From a virus: a stretch of 20,957 nt of DNA. Below the pieces are notes generated by a model. That model saw only the letters and a program-made list of their open reading frames with translations, searched no databases and was not told where the DNA came from. The position numbers were made by a program, and so were the translations under genes. Shown piece by piece: positions 9,423 through 17,145 of this stretch (position 1 is the stretch's first letter; each line of letters starts with the position of its first letter). The stretch is from positions 1 through 20,957 of the IMG/VR virus record IMGVR_UViG_3300045135_001738. One strand, written 5' to 3'.

Positions 9423-9662
9423 TTAATCAATGCGCTCCAATAATCCATGACGAATCATGTCCGCAGCCAATACATCCCTCCCACCAAAACGAAACCAACA
9501 ACCACTCCACTCACTCAGCTCAATCGCTAAACGACGCAAAAACCTAACCTCATCCTCACCACTCCCAGTCACATGACGACAGTGCAAAAATGGAACAACC
9601 TCTCCAGCCTCCTGACCGTCAAACTCAACCTCACTGCCATACCGCAACCTAAATCTAGCCAT
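9423..9662 (-). CDS. Small unknown protein, first gene of the late operon (79 aa)
   Basis: A short mixed alpha/beta protein (MARFRLRYGSEVEFDG at the start, RFLRRLAIELSEWSGCWFRF in the middle). I recall similar RLRY...SEWSG.W.RF proteins in other phages but no function. The ATG has GGGGAG 6 bases upstream. It is preceded by a promoter-like sequence at 9694-9723 and followed after 50 bases by the 947-aa gene, so it appears to open the late transcript. Confidence 0.65.
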   Translation of the reverse strand: MARFRLRYGSEVEFDGQEAGEVVPFLHCRHVTGSGEDEVRFLRRLAIELSEWSGCWFRFGGRDVLAADMIRHGLLERID

Positions 9663-9837: not shown

Positions 9838-9926
9838 GGGCCCGAAAAAAGGGGGGTATAACCCCCCTGTGCCCCCGAACCCGAACAAATGCCCGAACCC
9901 GATAGGGTACCTGCCCGATTGCCCGG
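9838..9926. repeat. CCCGAA/CCCGAT-rich intergenic segment
   Basis: CCCGAA or CCCGAT occurs about six times around and beyond the terminator, all in the same orientation on the plus strand, for example CCCGAACCCGAACAAATG and CCCGAACCCGAT. Similar clusters fill the gaps at 11331-11465 and 12759-12996. The rest of the 9663-9942 gap holds the promoter, GGGACCC array and terminator; I see no gene in it. Confidence 0.5.
9845..9867 (-). terminator. Rho-independent terminator after the amidoligase gene
   Basis: On the minus strand GGGGGGT pairs with ACCCCCC around a three-base loop and is followed by six T. It lies 76 bases beyond the amidoligase stop and would separate that transcript from the late promoter downstream. 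Confidence 0.9.
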
Positions 9927-9942: not shown

Positions 9943-11037
9943 TTAGCGCCGTTGGTCCAGATCATGCATGCGATCCTGCCACCATTCGAAATCCAGATCA
10001 TCCAGCCCGGCCCAAACGCTGGGCATGCCGCGCCGATTCTCGGGGCGCAAGCGGGCGCCGCTGGTGCGTTCGGTCCAGCTGGTGCGGACCTCATAGCGGG
10101 CAAGGTCGGTGCCATCGCCATATGAGTGGCCGTTGGCCTGCTGGGTGTGCGTGATCACGGCGGCGTCACCCACGCGGGCGCGTATTTCAGATATGCGCCC
10201 CCGGATGTTCTGTTCGCTGGTGCCTGTGGCGTCCATCAGGTCGCGGACTGTGGCACCACCGGGGCGGCGGCAAAGGGTGTAAATCACGCCCACGCGGGCG
10301 CCGCGCCGAAACGGCTGCTCGGGCGTCTCGCGCAATTGTTCGCGTTCGCCGGACTCGATACGCTCGGCGGTGGTCCAGCTGACTAGGTTCAACAGGAACT
10401 TCACCCATGCGATGATCTTGATGGGCTCAATGGTGCCTGCGGCTTGGCGAAACTCAATGGTGCCGCGCTGCCACGTCTGCAAGTTGATGGTGCTGAATTT
10501 GCCGCGCGTGGCGCTCTGCAGCTGGGCCAGCGTCTCGGCGCCTTCCAGCGCGCCAATGCTCACGGGCATGCAATAGCGGTTCTGGGTGCGGCTGGCCGGG
10601 TGCATGCGGTCAATGGTGGCCTGCTGGTAGGTGTAACGATACATGATATCTTTCACCGCGATAGCGTCCAGCGGGTCAAGGTATAGGCCATCGCCCGTGA
10701 TGTAGCGGCCAGTGCGCTCCTTGTGGGCGATGCTTTCGCCTGTGAAGGCGTTGGGGCGGTGGGCGGCGTCCAGCGGCGCGTTGCTAATGTGAACGTGCAA
10801 GCCACAAGCGCGGTTGATGGTGCAGCCTGCGCTTTCCAGCGCGGCGCAGACGTTGTGGATGTATTCCCATGCAACTTGGCCAGCGGCCAGCGGGGGCAGA
10901 ACGATTTCTGCGTCAACGCTGGGGGTGCCATCGGGTTTGACCTCGCACCCTCGTATGCCGCGCGATGCCAAGGCGCGTGTCACGGCGGGGATGCTGGCGC
11001 CGTGGGTTTCGATTTCTATGCCAAATGTGTGTGTCAT
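9943..11037 (-). CDS. Amidoligase (COOH-NH2 ligase, Amidoligase_2 type) fused to a winged-helix-like domain
   Basis: A 364-residue enzyme. The ligase domain (about 4-220) shows the family signatures: FGIEIETHG at 5-13, DAEIVLPPL at 42-50, GLHVHIS at 79-85 and TIEFRQAAGTIEP at 193-205. Families of this glutamine-synthetase/gamma-glutamylcysteine-ligase-like fold join a carboxylate to an amine with ATP. After it, residues 243-298 (ARVGVIYTLCRRPGGATVRD then LMDATGTSEQNIRGRISEIR) look like a winged helix, which is not a standard part of the ligase. I start at ATG 11037, which has AAGGA 8 bases upstream; ATG 11043 is too close to that site and the longer reading to 11109 runs through the promoter. 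The gene is monocistronic, with its own promoter, palindromic operator and terminator, and is GC-rich compared with the late genes. The substrate is unknown. A gamma-glutamylcyclotransferase-like gene at 14770 has a matching operator. Confidence 0.88.
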   Translation of the reverse strand: MTHTFGIEIETHGASIPAVTRALASRGIRGCEVKPDGTPSVDAEIVLPPLAAGQVAWEYIHNVCAALESAGCTINRACGLHVHISNAPLDAAHRPNAFTGESIAHKERTGRYITGDGLYLDPLDAIAVKDIMYRYTYQQATIDRMHPASRTQNRYCMPVSIGALEGAETLAQLQSATRGKFSTINLQTWQRGTIEFRQAAGTIEPIKIIAWVKFLLNLVSWTTAERIESGEREQLRETPEQPFRRGARVGVIYTLCRRPGGATVRDLMDATGTSEQNIRGRISEIRARVGDAAVITHTQQANGHSYGDGTDLARYEVRTSWTERTSGARLRPENRRGMPSVWAGLDDLDFEWWQDRMHDLDQRR

Positions 11038-11064
11038 GCTCATATTCCTTTTTTTGCATGTGTG

Positions 11065-11080
11065 GCCGCAAGCCTGCGGC
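11065..11080 (-). other. Hairpin at the 5' end of the amidoligase mRNA
   Basis: GCCGCA (11065-11070) and TGCGGC (11075-11080) are perfect inverted repeats with a four-base loop, just downstream of the predicted -10 (11089-11094). It would sit at or very near the mRNA start and may stabilise the transcript or act as an operator. Confidence 0.5.
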
Positions 11081-11088
11081 ATAGGTGT

Positions 11089-11117
11089 AGAATATGGGAT
11101 AAATCCCACGTGGGCAA
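11089..11117 (-). promoter_or_regulatory. Amidoligase promoter
   Basis: On the minus strand TTGCCC (11117-11112), a 17-base spacer and TATTCT (11094-11089) precede the gene by about 50 bases. The spacer contains the palindrome TGGGATAAATCCCA next to the -10. Confidence 0.65.
11095..11108. promoter_or_regulatory. Palindromic operator TGGGATAAATCCCA
   Basis: TGGGAT and ATCCCA are a perfect inverted repeat around AA. It abuts the amidoligase -10 box on its upstream side. The same palindrome with TA in the middle (TGGGATATATCCCA, 14726-14739) overlaps the -10 of the cyclotransferase-like gene. A repressor bound here would block polymerase at both. Confidence 0.65.
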
Positions 11118-11136
11118 GCGGAAAAGCGCATAAAGG

Positions 11137-11150
11137 CGAACAATTGTTCG
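11137..11150. promoter_or_regulatory. Palindrome CGAACAATTGTTCG upstream of the amidoligase promoter
   Basis: A perfect 14-bp palindrome, 19 bases upstream of the -35. Read on the minus strand the block is AACCCGAACAATTGTTCG. Copies stand upstream of the next two minus-strand promoters. The GAAC-N4-GTTC form equals the Gram-positive type LexA box, but a phage regulator is as likely. Confidence 0.6.
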
Positions 11151-11300
11151 GGTTTCTGCTGGTGCCGGGCGGCGCCGGGCGCCGGGCTGGTGGTGCTGGA
11201 TCTGACCGGGCGGGCCGGGCCGGGGCGCCGGGCGGTGGCCAGCCGGGGGGGGGCCGGGGGCCGGGCCGGGCGGCAGGGGCGGGGCGTGGGCGTGGGGCGG
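11151..11300. other. Extremely G-rich non-coding segment with G-quadruplex potential
   Basis: The plus strand from about 11160 to 11300 consists largely of GGG and GGGG runs separated by one to four bases (nine G at 11245-11253, then many shorter runs to 11300). Several quadruplex motifs can be drawn. Frames open across it are low-complexity and lack ribosome sites, so I see no gene. Confidence 0.55.
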
Positions 11301-11334
11301 AAAAGAAAAGGGGCCAGCCATGATGGCCAGCCCC
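11301..11334 (-). terminator. Rho-independent terminator after the 110-aa gene
   Basis: On the minus strand GGGGC and GCCCC form the outer stem, a CA/CA internal loop follows, then TGGC and GCCA close on a three-base loop. A TTTTCTTTT tract follows directly. It lies between the 110-aa gene and the G-rich segment. Confidence 0.75.
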
Positions 11335-11465
11335 GATCCCGATTGTCCCGATCCCGATGCCCGATGCTATAGCCCGATATCATATAGCCCGATATCATAT
11401 AGCCCGAACCCGAACCAAATAAACATGAGCCCGATGAAGGCTAGCCAAAAGGCCAGCCCCCCGAT
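11331..11465. repeat. CCCGAT repeat cluster with a 15-bp tandem repeat
   Basis: About ten CCCGAT/CCCGAA units lie in one orientation between the terminator and the 110-aa gene. Within them AGCCCGATATCATAT is repeated exactly at 11371-11385 and 11386-11400, with a third partial copy starting at 11401. An 8-bp inverted repeat (11439-11446 with 11451-11458) follows. The 11038-11476 gap holds these, the G-rich segment and the amidoligase control sites, and no gene. Confidence 0.6.
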
Positions 11466-11476
11466 GATATCCCTGA

Positions 11477-11809
11477 TCATGCTGCCTTCTCCCGCTCCCG
11501 AATCATAACCTCAAGCTGGTTCTGCGCCTCGCATAGCAGGGTCGCAAACGCGATGCGGCAAGCGATGTTGCCGAACGTGTCCCCCGGCTGCGCGATGCCG
11601 CCGCAGTCTTCAAGCCACGCTTCCCCGTCGCTTGTGTCCACGATGGAACACAGATGAATTGCTGCCCCGTAATAGATTGTCCAAGCGTGCCCGTCGCACG
11701 ATTCGTGCAGATACTCGCGCGCCTCGTCTTCGCTGTCGGTATTGTCTAGCGCCTCTCGCGCGATGTTCATGGCCTCAAGGTAAAACTTGGAATAGCTGAT
11801 ATCGATCAT
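11477..11809 (-). CDS. Small unknown phage protein (110 aa)
   Basis: I start at ATG 11809 (MIDISYSKFYLEAMNIAREA), which has AGGAG 8 bases upstream; the reading to 11839 crosses the leader. The middle, EYLHESCDGHAWTIYYGAAI, resembles a motif (HE..DGH.W.IYY) I recall from small early proteins of many phages. The second half contains AWLEDCGGIAQPGDTFGNIA and a hydrophobic helix. Four cysteines are scattered. Function unknown. It is a single-gene unit with promoter at 11838-11866 and terminator at 11301-11334. Confidence 0.75.
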   Translation of the reverse strand: MIDISYSKFYLEAMNIAREALDNTDSEDEAREYLHESCDGHAWTIYYGAAIHLCSIVDTSDGEAWLEDCGGIAQPGDTFGNIACRIAFATLLCEAQNQLEVMIREREKAA

Positions 11810-11837
11810 TGTCTTTTCTCCTATCCTAGACAATCCC

Positions 11838-11866
11838 ACAATCTACTAAGAAGAAGCGCAGGTCAA
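11838..11866 (-). promoter_or_regulatory. Promoter of the 110-aa gene
   Basis: On the minus strand TTGACC (11866-11861), a 17-base spacer and GATTGT (11843-11838). The leader continues GGGATTGTCTAGGATAGGAG, which closely matches the leader of the next operon (GGGATTATCTAGAAAAGGAG). Confidence 0.65.
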
Positions 11867-11912
11867 CAAAAAAATAACGCGTCTGATCTTTTTTAAGTCG
11901 CTGAAACAACAA

Positions 11913-11924
11913 GAACAATTGTTC
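11913..11924. promoter_or_regulatory. Palindrome GAACAATTGTTC upstream of the 110-aa gene promoter
   Basis: A perfect 12-bp palindrome ending 46 bases upstream of the -35, the same distance as the copy at 12662-12676 from its promoter. On the minus strand it is preceded by AACCC as in the other copies. It lies in a 125-base gap that otherwise has only the terminator and promoter. Confidence 0.6.
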
Positions 11925-11934
11925 GGGTTATCGT

Positions 11935-11961
11935 AAAAGAAAAGCCCGGGCTGGCCGGGCT
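11935..11961 (-). terminator. Rho-independent terminator after the three-gene operon
   Basis: On the minus strand AGCCCGG pairs with CCGGGCT around a five-base loop, followed by TTTCTTTT. It lies 5 bases beyond the stop of the 70-aa gene. Confidence 0.88.
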
Positions 11962-11966
11962 GATCT

Positions 11967-12179
11967 TCAGATCTTTTCGATTCGGATAAGCTGTGTTTCG
12001 TGCTCTTCGATTTCCCGAACATCTTCTTCGGTCAAGCTATATTGGCTATGCTCCACCTGAAACTGAACCCGGCGATGCATTTCCTCGGTCGCAAAGTCTA
12101 GCGCTTCCCATTGTTCTTCGAATTCGATCTCGTCCGGCTGCGAGTCCAGCGAATCGATTGCATATGTTACGCGCCACAT
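11967..12179 (-). CDS. Small acidic unknown protein (70 aa)
   Basis: I start at ATG 12179 (MWRVTYAIDSLDSQPDEIEF), with AAGGAG 8 bases upstream. The protein is rich in Glu and reads as a short beta strand followed by helices (EEQWEALDFATEEMHRRVQF), ending LIRIEKI. The shape, strand-helix with a conserved-looking W in EEQWEAL, is reminiscent of small phage proteins but I recognise no family. It is last in a three-gene operon, overlapping the 62-aa gene by 13 bases. Confidence 0.68.
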   Translation of the reverse strand: MWRVTYAIDSLDSQPDEIEFEEQWEALDFATEEMHRRVQFQVEHSQYSLTEEDVREIEEHETQLIRIEKI

Positions 12180-12355
12180 TCTTCTTTCTCCTTTTCTTCT
12201 GCATAACGTGGATTCCCGATATCCCGAATCCATGCTTCCGCTTCCGCTCTTGTTTCAAAGCTAGGTGCATCGTAGGCAATGCGAGACGCTAGGCGTCCCG
12301 CTGAAGTGTAAGCCGCAACATCGATTCCTCGTGCGCTGAAGTAAGTGTAAAACAT
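12167..12355 (-). CDS. Small unknown protein, middle gene of operon (62 aa)
   Basis: A short alpha/beta protein (MFYTYFSARGIDVAAYTSAG, then ETRAEAEAWIRDIGNPRYAEE). The pattern of a strand, a helix with AEAWI and a charged end is like many small phage proteins of unknown role. GGAGG stands 6 bases before the ATG. It starts one base after the stop of the 67-aa gene (TGAGATG) and overlaps the 70-aa gene, so the three are surely co-transcribed. Confidence 0.68.
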   Translation of the reverse strand: MFYTYFSARGIDVAAYTSAGRLASRIAYDAPSFETRAEAEAWIRDIGNPRYAEEKEKEECGA

Positions 12356-12356
12356 C

Positions 12357-12560
12357 TCAAGCCTCCGGGTAATATTCTAGCGCCTCACGAAAACGCCAAC
12401 CAGCTGCGCAATCGCAACCGATGTTATAAATATCGTCTTCGCTCCAGCCCCAAGTGATAAGCTGATCAATCTCGGCTGAAGTAAGCGGCGTGTCAGTGAA
12501 GCCGTAACGCGCGAACATCTGGCAGATACCGGCAAAGCGTTTTGAAGATTTCTTAATCAT
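12357..12560 (-). CDS. Small unknown protein, first gene of operon (67 aa)
   Basis: I start at ATG 12560 (MIKKSSKRFAGICQMFARYG), with AAGGAG close upstream; the longer reading to 12608 covers the promoter. The rest, TPLTSAEIDQLITWGWSEDD then IYNIGCDCAAGWRFREALEYY, is helical with three cysteines. No family recognised. It opens a three-gene operon under the promoter at 12587-12615. Confidence 0.7.
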   Translation of the reverse strand: MIKKSSKRFAGICQMFARYGFTDTPLTSAEIDQLITWGWSEDDIYNIGCDCAAGWRFREALEYYPEA

Positions 12561-12586
12561 AGCCCTCTCCTTTTCTAGATAATCCC

Positions 12587-12615
12587 ACAATATCCCATAA
12601 TAAGGCATGAGTCAA
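12587..12615 (-). promoter_or_regulatory. Promoter of the three-gene operon
   Basis: On the minus strand TTGACT (12615-12610), a 17-base spacer and TATTGT (12592-12587). TGGGATA and TGGGATTA flank or overlap the -10, echoing the operator half-site of the amidoligase promoter. The leader then reads TCTAGAAAAGGAG. Confidence 0.72.
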
Positions 12616-12661
12616 TAGGGGATAATAAAAAAAAGATTGCGCTGGCTTATTCTCGACAACC

Positions 12662-12676
12662 CGGACAATTGTTCGG
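12662..12676. promoter_or_regulatory. Near-palindrome CCGGACAATTGTTCGG upstream of the operon promoter
   Basis: The third copy of the GAACAATTGTTC-type site, with one half-site base changed (GGAC for GAAC), again followed by GGGTTA on the plus strand and 46 bases upstream of the -35. A further degenerate copy, CGAACAATTGTGCG, is at 12743-12756. Confidence 0.5.
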
Positions 12677-12758
12677 GTTACGTATCACGGCATGATACGC
12701 CGCTGGCGCATACCCAGTGGTCATCTGTGTCTTGGGGGTAGACGAACAATTGTGCGGT

Positions 12759-12996
12759 CCCGATCCCGATCATTGGCCCGATCTCGGTCCCGATCCCGAT
12801 TGATTAGGAAAACCCGAAGCCCGATCCCGATTTGGTTAGGTTTTGCCTAATGTGCCCTGAGAGCCACGGAGAGGCCCGTAGAACCCGAACAAATTTTCGT
12901 GGTAGGTCGGCCCGATTTAAGCCCGAATGCCCGATTCTGGGCCCGATTTGGGGCCTTGTGGGGGCCGCGAGGCCAAGCCCGCCAAGCCCAGCCCCG
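12759..12996. repeat. CCCGAT repeat cluster
   Basis: From 12759 to 12831 seven CCCGAT and one CCCGAA occur within 73 bases, in pairs such as CCCGATCCCGAT. Five or more looser copies follow to the small-terminase stop. All are in the same orientation. The 12561-12997 gap holds this cluster, the palindromes and the promoter, and no gene that I can see. Confidence 0.65.
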
Positions 12997-12997
12997 A

Positions 12998-13525
12998 TTA
13001 TTCCCGATCTTCGGTATCCTGAGTTACTGGGATAGCATCGATTTGTTCGTGTTCTTGTTCTGGTGTTACGTCGATCATGCGGTTTTTAGCGCGTGCCATG
13101 AATTCCTGCAGCTGTTCTACGATTTGTTCACGGCTCATGTTATCGACGTGTTCGTGTGTTACGTGGCTACGAGTGACCATTAGCCCGGTGACTTTGAGGC
13201 GTAGTTCTTCTGCTTTGATTGCTGCGCTAAAGTTACCTGCGGCCCACGCTTCATCTCTGAGCCTCTGCATGTCTCGGACGGACTTGGTGATTGTGACGCC
13301 ATATTTCGATTCGAGTTCTTGGCGCATTTCTTCCATGCGTTCCCGAACCGTTGGGTTATTTAGAAGCTGGACTGCTCTGACGTTTGGGTTTGCGTATCCT
13401 GCTGCTCTTGCTGCAGCGGTTTGCGTCATGTCTTTGTGGATATAGTTGTCGAGGAATTTTTGCTGCTGTGGGTTTAGCCTTCTGCCTTTTGGGTCTTTGT
13501 CTGCTTTGATTCCTACTTTTGGCAT
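12998..13525 (-). CDS. terS: Terminase small subunit
   Basis: A 175-residue protein with the layout of the Terminase_2 family: LNPQQQKFLDNYIHKDMTQT at 17-36, the helix-turn-helix segment AAARAAGYANPNVRAVQLLN at 37-56, then PTVRERMEEMRQELESKYG and a helical oligomerisation region with LRDEAWAAGNFSAAIKAEEL. The last 30 residues are acidic. The family recognises the packaging site and loads the large subunit. It follows the 220-aa gene by 4 bases. There is no clear Shine-Dalgarno, which suggests coupling to that gene. It is about 6.5 kb upstream of the large subunit, with accessory units and several terminators between. Confidence 0.88.
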   Translation of the reverse strand: MPKVGIKADKDPKGRRLNPQQQKFLDNYIHKDMTQTAAARAAGYANPNVRAVQLLNNPTVRERMEEMRQELESKYGVTITKSVRDMQRLRDEAWAAGNFSAAIKAEELRLKVTGLMVTRSHVTHEHVDNMSREQIVEQLQEFMARAKNRMIDVTPEQEHEQIDAIPVTQDTEDRE

Positions 13526-13529
13526 TTTG

Positions 13530-14192
13530 CTATCCCGAACAATTTATCTTGTTTCCTGTTGTTTCGATCCACTGTTGCAGATCGATCCACGCTGGAAATG
13601 GTCTGACTTCTCTGCTGCCTTTGCGTCCCCAGTATGGATTGCCTTCTTCGTCCTGCCAATAGTCGGCGTCCAGCTTTGGGTGTCTATAGACGAGCGTCAT
13701 TGTGATGTATTTTGCGATGATTGCACTTGAGCGTGTGTTTTTGTGCAGGATGATAAGTTTCCGCTGATCCCCGATTTCCCGACCGAAGAGTTCTTTGCGT
13801 CCCCGTTTCTTTGGCTTTTTGGTGATTCCTGTTTTCTGTGCGACTTGCGTGTGCACATCTAGGTCGTATCCGGTTTCTGCTGCCTGCCATTCTTCTGTTG
13901 CTTTGAGGAATGCTCTACGCACCCCTGACACGAACAATTTCCCGTCTCTATTTCTGATCCAATAGATGATTGGCGGTCTGCCTCCCCGCCCTGTGTCTCT
14001 GTATCTCCCGACATTTGCCACTGTGTATGCATCGACTTTCCCTTTGTCGATGCGCAGGAATGTTTCCCCGACCTGTGGCAGTTTCTGCATTGAGACGTGC
14101 CACTTGCCCCCTGCTGGGTTCATGAGTTTTGCGCTGGCTTCTGGATTTATGGCTTGCCGGACGCGAAAACGCGATTGCGCTACATCGTTCAT
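13530..14192 (-). CDS. Unknown phage protein (220 aa)
   Basis: A basic, mixed alpha/beta protein. Features include a long beta-rich first half (WHVSMQKLPQVGETFLRIDK, RPPIIYWIRNRDGKLFVSGV), a central basic patch KKPKKRGRKELF, and a second half with LIILHKNTRSSAIIAKYITM and LDADYWQDEEGNPYWGRKGS. I recognise no family; a DNA-binding role is conceivable from the basic patch and the pairing with the small terminase. The ATG has AGGGA at a 7-base spacing, and a promoter lies at 14227-14256. Confidence 0.7.
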   Translation of the reverse strand: MNDVAQSRFRVRQAINPEASAKLMNPAGGKWHVSMQKLPQVGETFLRIDKGKVDAYTVANVGRYRDTGRGGRPPIIYWIRNRDGKLFVSGVRRAFLKATEEWQAAETGYDLDVHTQVAQKTGITKKPKKRGRKELFGREIGDQRKLIILHKNTRSSAIIAKYITMTLVYRHPKLDADYWQDEEGNPYWGRKGSREVRPFPAWIDLQQWIETTGNKINCSG

Positions 14193-14226
14193 CTTGGTAT
14201 CCCTATCCTGTGTCTAAGCAACACTG

Positions 14227-14256
14227 AGCCTACCGCTCTGGGGGCGCATCTGTCAA
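14227..14256 (-). promoter_or_regulatory. Promoter of the 220-aa gene and small terminase
   Basis: On the minus strand TTGACA (14256-14251), an 18-base spacer and TAGGCT (14232-14227), about 35 bases before the ATG. ACATTCCCACA is repeated upstream at 14334 and 14361. Confidence 0.6.
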
Positions 14257-14423
14257 CCGGGTTCCTATCCCCGACCTGACCGATGCGCCCTTTCTATTTC
14301 CCGATACCCGGCTGCGCCTCTGCCCTGCCCTATACATTCCCACACACGTTGCTGCCCCACACATTCCCACATGTGATTCTTGAGCCTGTCGTCCTGACGC
14401 CAACCCGCTTCTCAACATTATAT

Positions 14424-14690
14424 GGGGGGCTCATATATGCCCCCCTATATAGGTATATATAGGGTAACGAGTTTTACGCGTAACGTAAATGCTAGCCATT
14501 GGTTTCTGTAGCTATTTTCCGTCTTTTACGTCAACACCCTAGTCTAACGCGTTTAATAAATTCCTACAAAGCTATGCAAACAAGGACAAATCTACGTTAC
14601 GTTAAAAAAAGCCCTTTAACGTTTTTACGTAAATACACGTTTATCACGAACATTTTCTCGCCTTTTCAACCGTGTTTATTTTCCTTGGCG
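14424..14690. other. AT-rich divergent control region, candidate replication origin
   Basis: The 14193-14769 gap has no gene that I can support. It starts with a hairpin, GGGGGGC (14424-14430) with GCCCCCC (14439-14445), flanked by TATATA runs. Then an AT-rich stretch carries many TTTACG, ACGTAA and ACGTTA words, including GCGTAACGTAAA near 14478, TCTTTTACGTCAAC near 14523, TCTACGTTACGTTA near 14591 and TTTTTACGTAAATACACG near 14622. Repeated short motifs in AT-rich DNA between divergent arms fit a replication origin or a master control region; this is inference from layout. Confidence 0.4.
14599..14622. repeat. Inverted repeat ACGTTAAA / TTTAACGT
   Basis: ACGTTAAA (14599-14606) and TTTAACGT (14615-14622) are perfect reverse complements around an 8-base loop. 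It lies within the AT-rich divergent region and shares its ACGTTA word with the neighbouring repeats. Confidence 0.6.
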
Positions 14691-14707
14691 CTAGCTGGCG
14701 ATTAGCC

Positions 14708-14736
14708 TTGACTGGGCCAATTCTGTGGGATATATC
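14708..14736 (+). promoter_or_regulatory. Promoter of the cyclotransferase-like gene
   Basis: TTGACT (14708-14713), a 17-base spacer and TATATC (14731-14736). The -10 lies inside the palindrome TGGGATATATCCCA. The leader contains TCTAGCGAAGGAG, like the other accessory leaders. Confidence 0.72.
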
Positions 14737-14739
14737 CCA
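14726..14739. promoter_or_regulatory. Palindromic operator TGGGATATATCCCA
   Basis: A perfect 14-bp palindrome over the -10 of this promoter. It differs from the amidoligase site at 11095-11108 by a single base in the central dinucleotide. Confidence 0.65.
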
Positions 14740-14769
14740 TCGATCTTATCTAGCGAAGGAGTGCTTTTG

Positions 14770-15213
14770 ATGTCTGATGATCGTATGCTTTACATGGGCT
14801 ATGGGATGAATATGAACCGTGAGGCGATGTCTGGTCGTTGTCCTGCGGCGAAGTGTTTGGGTGGTTTTTATTTGCCGGGTTATCGTTTGTTGATGCGTGG
14901 TGTTGCGGATTTTCGCCGTGACGCTGACACTGTGTTGCCTGTGGCGTTGTGGGAGATCACGCCTGCTTGTTTAGAGGCGTTGGATCGTTTGGAGGGTTAT
15001 CCGACTTTGTATGGTCGGTATCGTATGAATGGCCGTTGGATTATTTACGACATGAACGGCAACAAGAACATTTTGCGTGAGCCGAGCCGCCATTACTACG
15101 AGATGATCAAAGAGGGTTATGAGTGGCTGGGTTTGGATACGTGGCATTTGAAGAACGCTGTGTATGAGGCGCGCCAATATGATCCGAGCGTTGATTCTGT
15201 GGTTGCATCCTAG
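14770..15213 (+). CDS. Gamma-glutamylcyclotransferase-like (AIG2/GGCT fold) protein
   Basis: A 147-residue protein. The start at ATG 14770 (MSDDRMLYMGYGMNMNREAM) has AAGGAG 8 bases upstream, while the reading to 14725 crosses the promoter. Residues 8-14 (YMGYGMN) match the YGxN substrate loop of the family. P36-L63 carries the G-x-L/Y-LPGYRLLM...VALWEIT core strands, and LDRLEGYP at 71-78 holds the catalytic-type glutamate E75. The length is usual. Members release 5-oxoproline from gamma-glutamyl amines or peptides, and BtrG in butirosin synthesis removes a protecting gamma-glutamyl group. The gene is alone between its own promoter and terminator, and its operator matches that of the amidoligase, so it may undo or finish what that ligase makes. 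The actual substrate is unknown. Confidence 0.85.
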   Translation: MSDDRMLYMGYGMNMNREAMSGRCPAAKCLGGFYLPGYRLLMRGVADFRRDADTVLPVALWEITPACLEALDRLEGYPTLYGRYRMNGRWIIYDMNGNKNILREPSRHYYEMIKEGYEWLGLDTWHLKNAVYEARQYDPSVDSVVAS

Positions 15214-15291: not shown

Positions 15292-15310
15292 TGCCTCGTA
15301 GATTAACTTG

Positions 15311-15338
15311 CCCCCGCCATTTGTGCGGGGGTTTTTTT
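15311..15338 (+). terminator. Rho-independent terminator after the cyclotransferase-like gene
   Basis: CCCCCGC (15311-15317) pairs with GCGGGGG (15325-15331) around a seven-base loop, followed by seven T. Confidence 0.95.
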
Positions 15339-15401: not shown

Positions 15402-15429
15402 TTGACTTGTTCTGACTATGGGATAATCT
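15402..15429 (+). promoter_or_regulatory. Promoter of the right-arm operon
   Basis: TTGACT (15402-15407), a 16-base spacer ending TATGGGA, and TAATCT (15424-15429). The leader continues to TCTAGAAAAGAGGAG, as in the minus-strand accessory operons. No other promoter or terminator is evident down to 20843, so it may drive nineteen genes. Confidence 0.7.
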
Positions 15430-16394: not shown

Positions 16395-16591
16395 TGTATT
16401 GGCTGGCGTCTTGTGATGTTTGCCACGGCTGGGGGGAGATTGAGGTTGATCTTCCCCGAAGCTTGGACGCTGAGTGGCAGATTTGTTCGCGTTGTGGCGG
16501 GGACGGTGAGATGGTTGTGCAATGTCCAGATTGTGGCGCGGATATGTTCGTGTCTGATCAGAATCATAATAGGTGTGAGAATTGTCGATGA
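16394..16591 (+). CDS. Small zinc-ribbon-like protein with four CxxC pairs (65 aa)
   Basis: The protein starts MYWLASCDVCHGWGEIEVDL. Its cysteine pairs are C7/C10, C31/C34, C44/C47 and C61/C64, with CxxCxGxG-like contexts (CHGWG, CSRCGGDG, CPDCGAD). Eight cysteines in four knuckles can bind two zinc ions, as in DnaJ-type or tandem ribbon domains. Partner and role unknown. The gene begins at the TGATG overlap and ends at an ATGA overlap with the Myb-like gene; a longer reading to 16160 runs in the wrong frame over two genes. Confidence 0.72.
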   Translation: MYWLASCDVCHGWGEIEVDLPRSLDAEWQICSRCGGDGEMVVQCPDCGADMFVSDQNHNRCENCR

Positions 16592-17145
16592 AAAATGGTG
16601 ATTGGTCGAAGGGTGAGACTGAGGTTTTGCGTGAGATGTATCACGCGGGCACGACCATTGACGCTGTATCGAAGCGTTTGGGTCGGAGTTATAACTCTGT
16701 GAAGGAAAAGGCTGCGCTTATGCGTCGGACTGAGAACCTTCCATTTGCGCAGCGTCGTGCGCGTCCCGATTCGTATAGCAAGGCTGACGAGGAGACGATT
16801 TTGCGCATGTATGAGGATGGTGCGTCCACGAAGCAGATTGGTCAGAAGCTTGGCCGAAACCCGAACAGCATTGCCGGGAAAATTGTTCGTATGCGCGATG
16901 CTGGCGTTGAATTTAAGAACCGCAAGCGGACCAAGGATGGCCGGACGTTGAATGCTTTGATCAAGAAGTATGGCATTCGTTTTGGCACTTTATCTGAGCA
17001 TCTTTCCTCTGACGATTCGACGTTAAGCAGTGACGCTGTTGAGTGGATTTGCGCGCAGGCATTGAACGGTGGCTATGACAGCATTGCTGAGTTTTTGGTG
17101 GACTGTGCTTTGGAGAATTATTTTGAGGAGACTTCCGATGCGTAG
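16588..17145 (+). CDS. DNA-binding protein with two Myb/GcrA-like helix-turn-helix repeats (185 aa)
   Basis: Two similar repeats, residues 6-46 (WSKGETEVLREMYHAGTTID then AVSKRLGRSYNSVKEKAALM) and 63-103 (YSKADEETILRMYEDGASTK then QIGQKLGRNPNSIAGKIVRM), each read as a three-helix HTH with a W/Y-SKxxxExLRxMY start and LGRxxNS before the recognition helix. The second resembles the N-terminal domain of GcrA, an alphaproteobacterial cell-cycle regulator (NAVIGKVHR-type helix). The last 80 residues form a separate helical region. It may bind DNA as a transcription factor for phage or host promoters. It starts by ATGA and overlaps the next gene by 8 bases. Confidence 0.75.
   Translation: MKNGDWSKGETEVLREMYHAGTTIDAVSKRLGRSYNSVKEKAALMRRTENLPFAQRRARPDSYSKADEETILRMYEDGASTKQIGQKLGRNPNSIAGKIVRMRDAGVEFKNRKRTKDGRTLNALIKKYGIRFGTLSEHLSSDDSTLSSDAVEWICAQALNGGYDSIAEFLVDCALENYFEETSDA

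Follow-up and report, generated by a model that had tools for sequence, protein, structure and literature searches.

The amidoligase gene and the gamma-glutamyl cyclotransferase (GGCT)-like gene carried by the IMG/VR virus record IMGVR_UViG_3300045135_001738 appear, from comparison of related sequences, to be a functionally linked pair. They are inherited together, both among the close relatives of this phage and in distant ones, and their promoters share a short element, TGGGA, that recurs throughout a surrounding island of small genes. The stretch that we analysed, hereafter the window, comprises 20,957 bases of that record. In our preferred reading, held with about even confidence, one protein makes an amide and the other cuts a gamma-glutamyl amide, the two being linked within a TGGGA-controlled island whose likeliest purpose is to alter the infected cell.

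Co-inheritance of the ligase and cyclotransferase genes

An earlier note on this DNA had proposed the two genes from their reading frames, 3.7 kb apart on opposite strands, and matches to PF12224, PF06094 and PHROG 2520 bore out both assignments. The small terminase subunit (TerS) is encoded between them.

9943–11037, minus strand: amidoligase gene, 364 amino acids (PF12224, predicted fold, relatives up to 81% identical)
14770–15213, plus strand: gamma-glutamyl cyclotransferase-like gene, 147 amino acids (PF06094, phrog_2520, fold)
12998–13525, minus strand: TerS gene (PF03592; TGGGA arrays upstream in 18 contigs)

The window's large terminase shares ~90% identity with its counterparts on many uncultured viral contigs (at least 600 relatives); the nearest named phages by this protein are 023Pt_psg01, SAR11 phage HTVC027P and DSL-LC04 (~61% identity), and SAR11 phage HTVC023P stands at 55%. 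We took a census of the family across 130 non-redundant contigs. Both genes were present in 59, arranged divergently around TerS in 47 and adjacent on one strand in 12; as many contigs had been collected via one of the two genes, these counts answer whether the partner is present given one gene rather than how frequent the pair is phage-wide. Relatives with only one of the genes, which the earlier note had counted against its proposal where they keep the same operator, were absent among records spanning the region: contigs with a single gene end too near the partner's place to judge, the tightest being L157, which stops 1.8 kb after TerS. Eight of nine records of 49–60 kb carried both genes (including one gene truncated at a contig end and one broken ligase frame), and one (G002, also L051) carried neither. 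In the tree, L051 is nested among pair-bearing lineages (Shimodaira–Hasegawa-like approximate likelihood ratio test 97), implying that it lost both genes.

Co-occurrence across phages, a check that the earlier note had suggested, proved strong in unrelated phages as well as in the phage's own family. Genes of PF12224 and PF06094 lie close together in Bacillus, Arthrobacter, Terrisporobacter and gut phages at 20–40% identity; a Porphyromonas phage was the only one of the distant phages examined to lack a GGCT gene beside its PF12224 gene. In the gut phage group, 73 amidoligase loci had 1.5 kb or more of downstream sequence, and 71 of these held a GGCT gene; the median gap between the genes was 55 bases, and GGCT lay downstream in 69 of the 77 positive loci overall. 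TerS lies between or next to the two genes in the window and in several gut phages. Such strict co-inheritance across marine and gut phages suggests that the two enzymes serve one process. A cellular source was rejected, the sole close genome match being a 6.4-kb contig in a Rhodobacteraceae metagenome-assembled genome that is probably phage itself, and so was a known anti-phage defence gene, PADLOC returning no match.

Predicted folds and activities of the two proteins

The amidoligase matched the Amidoligase_2 profile PF12224 (E=7e-17; 62.6 bits against a curated cut-off of 22), as did all 15 relatives searched. Its AlphaFold model (mean predicted local distance difference test score, pLDDT, 85.9) superimposed on glutamine synthetase and YbdK with Z 11.7 and a root-mean-square deviation of 3.4–3.7 over ~205 residues. 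Residues expected for catalysis (E8, E10, H81, H83, E195, R197) were invariant in the alignment of relatives. The window ligase is assigned the glutamine synthetase fold, and ATP-dependent amide ligase activity is predicted for it. Two domains can be distinguished.

10327–11037, minus strand: catalytic glutamine synthetase-like domain, residues 1–237 (alignment and fold match)
10078–10296, minus strand: C-terminal winged-helix-like domain, residues 248–320 (DUF3489-like, weak MarR-family fold match)

The C-terminal tail ranks among the best-conserved parts of the protein. A DUF3489-like match, at best E=1e-4, was detected in the tail of 12 of the 15 relatives, the window protein falling below the cut-off for that family, and the fold match, to the MarR-family protein BpsR, was weak (E=0.03). 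The same domain also occurs as stand-alone small open reading frames (ORFs) upstream of the ligase in ~15 contigs, making autoregulation or action at DNA candidate roles worth testing. Separately, the amidoligase 5' leader (window 11038–11090, minus strand) contains a hairpin that recurs, with changed sequence, in L004, L055 and L008; against shuffles it fell short of significance in the window (z −0.2) and did better only in L008 (z −3.9), the other two relatives giving z −1.9 and −2.0. An Rfam search of the window returned no known RNA element.

The second protein passed the GGACT profile PF06094 marginally (23.0 bits, cut-off 22.8) and matched the gamma-glutamyl cyclotransferase family PHROG 2520 with E=3e-19. 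Human GGCT was the top structural match of its AlphaFold model (3cry/2i5t; template-modelling score 0.67–0.68; mean pLDDT 84) and was matched by profile too, LD..EG of the window protein aligning with human LDEQEG. The window protein forms a long branch within its own family, yet the expected catalytic residues are retained: Y11, G12 and E75 are invariant in relatives, preserving the N-terminal Y-G motif and the catalytic glutamate. From this fold, release of 5-oxoproline from gamma-glutamyl amines or peptides is predicted.

Taken with the retained residues, the two models suggest that the enzymes probably make and cut gamma-glutamyl-type amide bonds. In butirosin synthesis, a gamma-glutamyl group is made by BtrJ and then removed by BtrG, a GGCT-fold protein. 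The earlier note had drawn on this example; the analogy extends to the predicted chemistry and not to the ligase fold, BtrJ being an ATP-grasp ligase.

A TGGGA element shared across the island

The earlier note had described a 14-bp palindrome at the −10 of each promoter and regarded it as an operator of the pair. We located the promoters by eye; the promoter scanner lists neither.

11089–11117, minus strand: inferred amidoligase promoter TTGCCC-17-TATTCT (TTGCCC 11117–11112, 17 bp, TATTCT 11094–11089; from sequence; L004 shares the −10 and the adjoining TCCCA)
11095–11108: TGGGATAAATCCCA, convergent TGGGA pair in the −35/−10 spacer of the amidoligase promoter
14708–14736, plus strand: inferred GGCT promoter TTGACT-17-TATATC (TTGACT 14708–14713, 17 bp, TATATC 14731–14736; from sequence)
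14726–14739: TGGGATATATCCCA, convergent TGGGA pair over the GGCT −10
12583–12597, minus strand: TGGGA direct repeat, 10 bp apart, in the promoter of the 12357–12563 gene (TGGGAT at 12597 and 12587)
11833–11838, minus strand: single TGGGAT in the promoter of the 11477–11809 gene
15419–15424, plus strand: single TGGGAT in the promoter of the 15459–15869 gene
9850–9868, minus strand: terminator-like hairpin 3' of the amidoligase gene
15310–15332, plus strand: terminator-like hairpin 3' of the GGCT gene

The sequence TGGGATAWATCCCA indeed occurs at both promoters. It overlaps the −10 only at the GGCT gene, and as a palindrome it is perfect at 14726–14739 and has a mismatched centre at 11095–11108. 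Each gene had also been credited with its own promoter and terminator; a hairpin does lie behind each, within a window total of 11 that is not clearly above the 8.2 of shuffles.

A loose search of the window for the palindrome (three mismatches allowed) returned 7 hits, an unconvincing number that 7 of 100 shuffles reached, and the exact 14-mer, which the earlier note had proposed to seek in relatives, was rare there. Spaced TGGGA pairs, on the other hand, numbered 3 in the window versus 0.07 in shuffles. The underlying unit appears to be TGGGA itself, arranged as 10-bp direct repeats, as convergent pairs (the palindrome) or as divergent pairs. In the relatives, same-strand pairs peaked sharply, with 185 at exactly 10 bases and 24 at 20, compared with 0–8 at most neighbouring spacings; convergent pairs peaked at 13 bp (26) and 23 bp (15), and divergent ones at 18 bp (27). 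Because homologous promoters repeat in these counts, we ran a per-genome check: five near-complete relatives and the window together held 17 pairs in the island (~0.1 expected) and 7 outside it (~0.9 expected). The pair-less G002 had one TGGGA pair, of a sequence also present in G009, G015 and G016.

Arrays of TGGGA precede the ligase gene, TerS, the 15459-type gene, an unnamed gene for 131 amino acids and other small ORFs. In L004, the closest relative in the ligase, the same −10 and one TCCCA persist, and in place of the palindrome stand two TCCCA in direct repeat, 10 bp apart. Half-sites before several other gene families and the absence of the palindrome from L004 rule out a pair-specific operator. 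The earlier note had counted a palindrome at many unrelated promoters against its proposal; half-sites do occur elsewhere, yet most fall within the same island and are not scattered genome-wide. This concentration of spaced pairs also rules out a genome-wide promoter motif. The shared TGGGA element, as read from these sequences, is real and serves the whole island.

Further palindromes lie upstream of these promoters.

11137–11150: second palindrome, CGAACAATTGTTCG, ~30 bp upstream of the amidoligase operator
11913–11924: second copy of the GAACAATTGTTC palindrome, upstream of the 11477–11809 gene

CGAACAATTGTTCG is associated with the ligase side: GAACAATTG was found upstream of 53 of 79 amidoligases versus 2 of 72 GGCT genes. 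With variants, the GAACAATTGTTC palindrome precedes several promoters (window 11137–11150, 11913–11924 and 12660–12677). Many CCCGAACA and CCCGAT repeats occupy spacers mid-genome in the window phage and its relatives.

One neighbouring gene follows the ligase closely in its distribution.

9423–9662, minus strand: 79-amino-acid protein downstream of the amidoligase (alignment; found in 50 of the 51 amidoligase contigs long enough to hold it)

This protein belongs to no known family, and L051 and L041 lack it together with the ligase. Conservation is strong at its GLLE-x-[IV]D end, where 92% of sequences have the last D. In the same two pair-less contigs, a GP88 (PF17338) gene fills the amidoligase slot (6144–6857 in L051, 1583–2311 in L041). 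Elsewhere in the window, 16582–17145 (plus strand) encodes a helix-turn-helix protein that weakly resembles GcrA and may act as a regulator.

Proposed role and comparison with known systems

Under our preferred reading, the glutamine synthetase-like amidoligase would spend ATP on coupling an amine, carried by a peptide or a small molecule, to a carboxylate, with the gamma-carboxyl of glutamate as the likeliest one, and the GGCT-fold enzyme would later free the amine with loss of 5-oxoproline. Such make-and-break chemistry is plausible. The pair would be expressed jointly, in an island made up of TerS and the short, mostly monocistronic units on either side of it, and the promoters of this island would present TGGGA elements at helical-turn spacing to one DNA-binding protein. 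We infer this regulator, as we do the catalytic activities, the gamma-glutamyl chemistry and the target. The likeliest purpose would be to change the infected cell, for instance its envelope peptides against superinfection; envelope modification is a published suggestion for phage pairs (PMC5498523; PMC10580990).

Several points weigh against this reading. The neighbours of the pair in the window include no identified cell-wall enzyme, and a GATase_6 search for the glutamine amidotransferase (GATase) of phiEco32/LUZ24-type cassettes gave no hit in the window record or in any of ten related records, nine of which carry the pair at least in part and one of which lacks it. Both enzymes acting on one substrate at one time would run a futile cycle, and an envelope role leaves the winged-helix-like tail unexplained. 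The TGGGA spacing totals count homologous promoters repeatedly, and the correlation between missing pair and missing motif comprises one near-complete record and one fragment, which also lack other island genes.

Among the alternatives, a short gamma-glutamyl cycle, building or breaking down gamma-glutamyl peptides (gamma-Glu-Cys or glutathione, for example), might feed amino acids or shift the thiol balance, with no target being tagged. YbdK, a weak glutamate-cysteine ligase, is among the top structural matches of the ligase, the second protein matches human GGCT best, and PHROG files this protein under moron/auxiliary metabolic. We nevertheless consider this auxiliary metabolism unlikely: PF12224 is a family of its own, absent from 14 reference genomes and hence not a borrowed housekeeping enzyme, and the pair sits among co-regulated small accessory genes without assigned function rather than among metabolic genes. 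It is more doubtful still that the two genes merely occupy the same accessory slots near terminase genes and act on unrelated substrates. They are separately transcribed in the window, judging from the inferred promoters, and L051 lost other island genes simultaneously, but co-occurrence holds in two gene orders and in distant phages where the genes are directly adjacent.

A similarly low probability attaches to DNA-directed chemistry, whereby the tail would bring the ligase to DNA, a base or DNA-bound protein would be modified and GGCT would trim the modification. The conserved winged-helix-like tail with its stand-alone counterparts, and the proximity of the pair to TerS in the window and several gut phages, would fit; yet the stand-alone copies could equally well be autoregulators, no base-hypermodification genes were found among the scanned window proteins, and the tail gave a weak fold match. 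Least probable of these readings, and very unlikely, is a self-regulating ligase whose tail and stand-alone copies bind the island TGGGA elements and switch GGCT, TerS and other genes, with the co-inherited 79-residue protein, which has a conserved acidic C-terminus, as protein substrate of the ligase.

Phage ligase/cyclotransferase pairs have been described before (PMC11318856; PMC5498523; PMC3890496; PMC5513430), and the window pair is of this known kind. Amidoligase/GGCT cassettes occur in phiEco32, LUZ24-like phages and PSA-HP1 (PMC11318856, PMC10580990 citing Iyer et al. 2009; PMC5498523; PMC3890496), likewise uniting a PF12224 amidoligase and an AIG2/GGCT protein in one accessory region. 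The phiEco32/LUZ24-type cassettes additionally contain a class II GATase plus either an ATP-grasp ligase or a second ligase, of the COOH-NH2 type; our search for the COOH-NH2 type (PF14395) gave no match, and neither did its control. Closer in form are the two-gene pairs of Bacillus phage 031MP004, Terrisporobacter phage TPDSL_ph1, gut 'Heliusvirales' and LM41 prophages (PMC11318856), whose genes lie within ~1–2 kb, sometimes beside terminase genes. Those are usually co-directional and adjacent, whereas the window pair diverges around TerS and its ligase bears a conserved winged-helix-like tail with stand-alone relatives of its own. This tail and its stand-alone copies, the lack of a detected GATase and the 79-residue protein after the ligase are new details. 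Pupylation (PafA/Pup) pairs a glutamine synthetase-like ligase with a small tag protein that ends in Gly-Gly-Glu/Gln; by its C-terminal sequence, the 79-residue neighbour has no Gly-Gly-Glu end. Phage amidoligase/GGCT pairs are predicted to remodel the infected cell, with no demonstrated substrate in the literature covered, and the compact form without a detected GATase offers a simple set for a substrate search.

The TGGGA element, for its part, resembles the start-associated sequences (SAS/ESAS) of cluster K mycobacteriophages (PMC3203893), where a short repeated element, accompanied by inverted repeats, marks the beginnings of numerous small accessory genes within one phage group. SAS is placed at the start of translation, whereas TGGGA lies at the promoter core, at multiples of the helical turn and concentrated in one island; not described in the literature we found, it provides a testable regulatory element for a group of marine phages that is abundant and uncultured.

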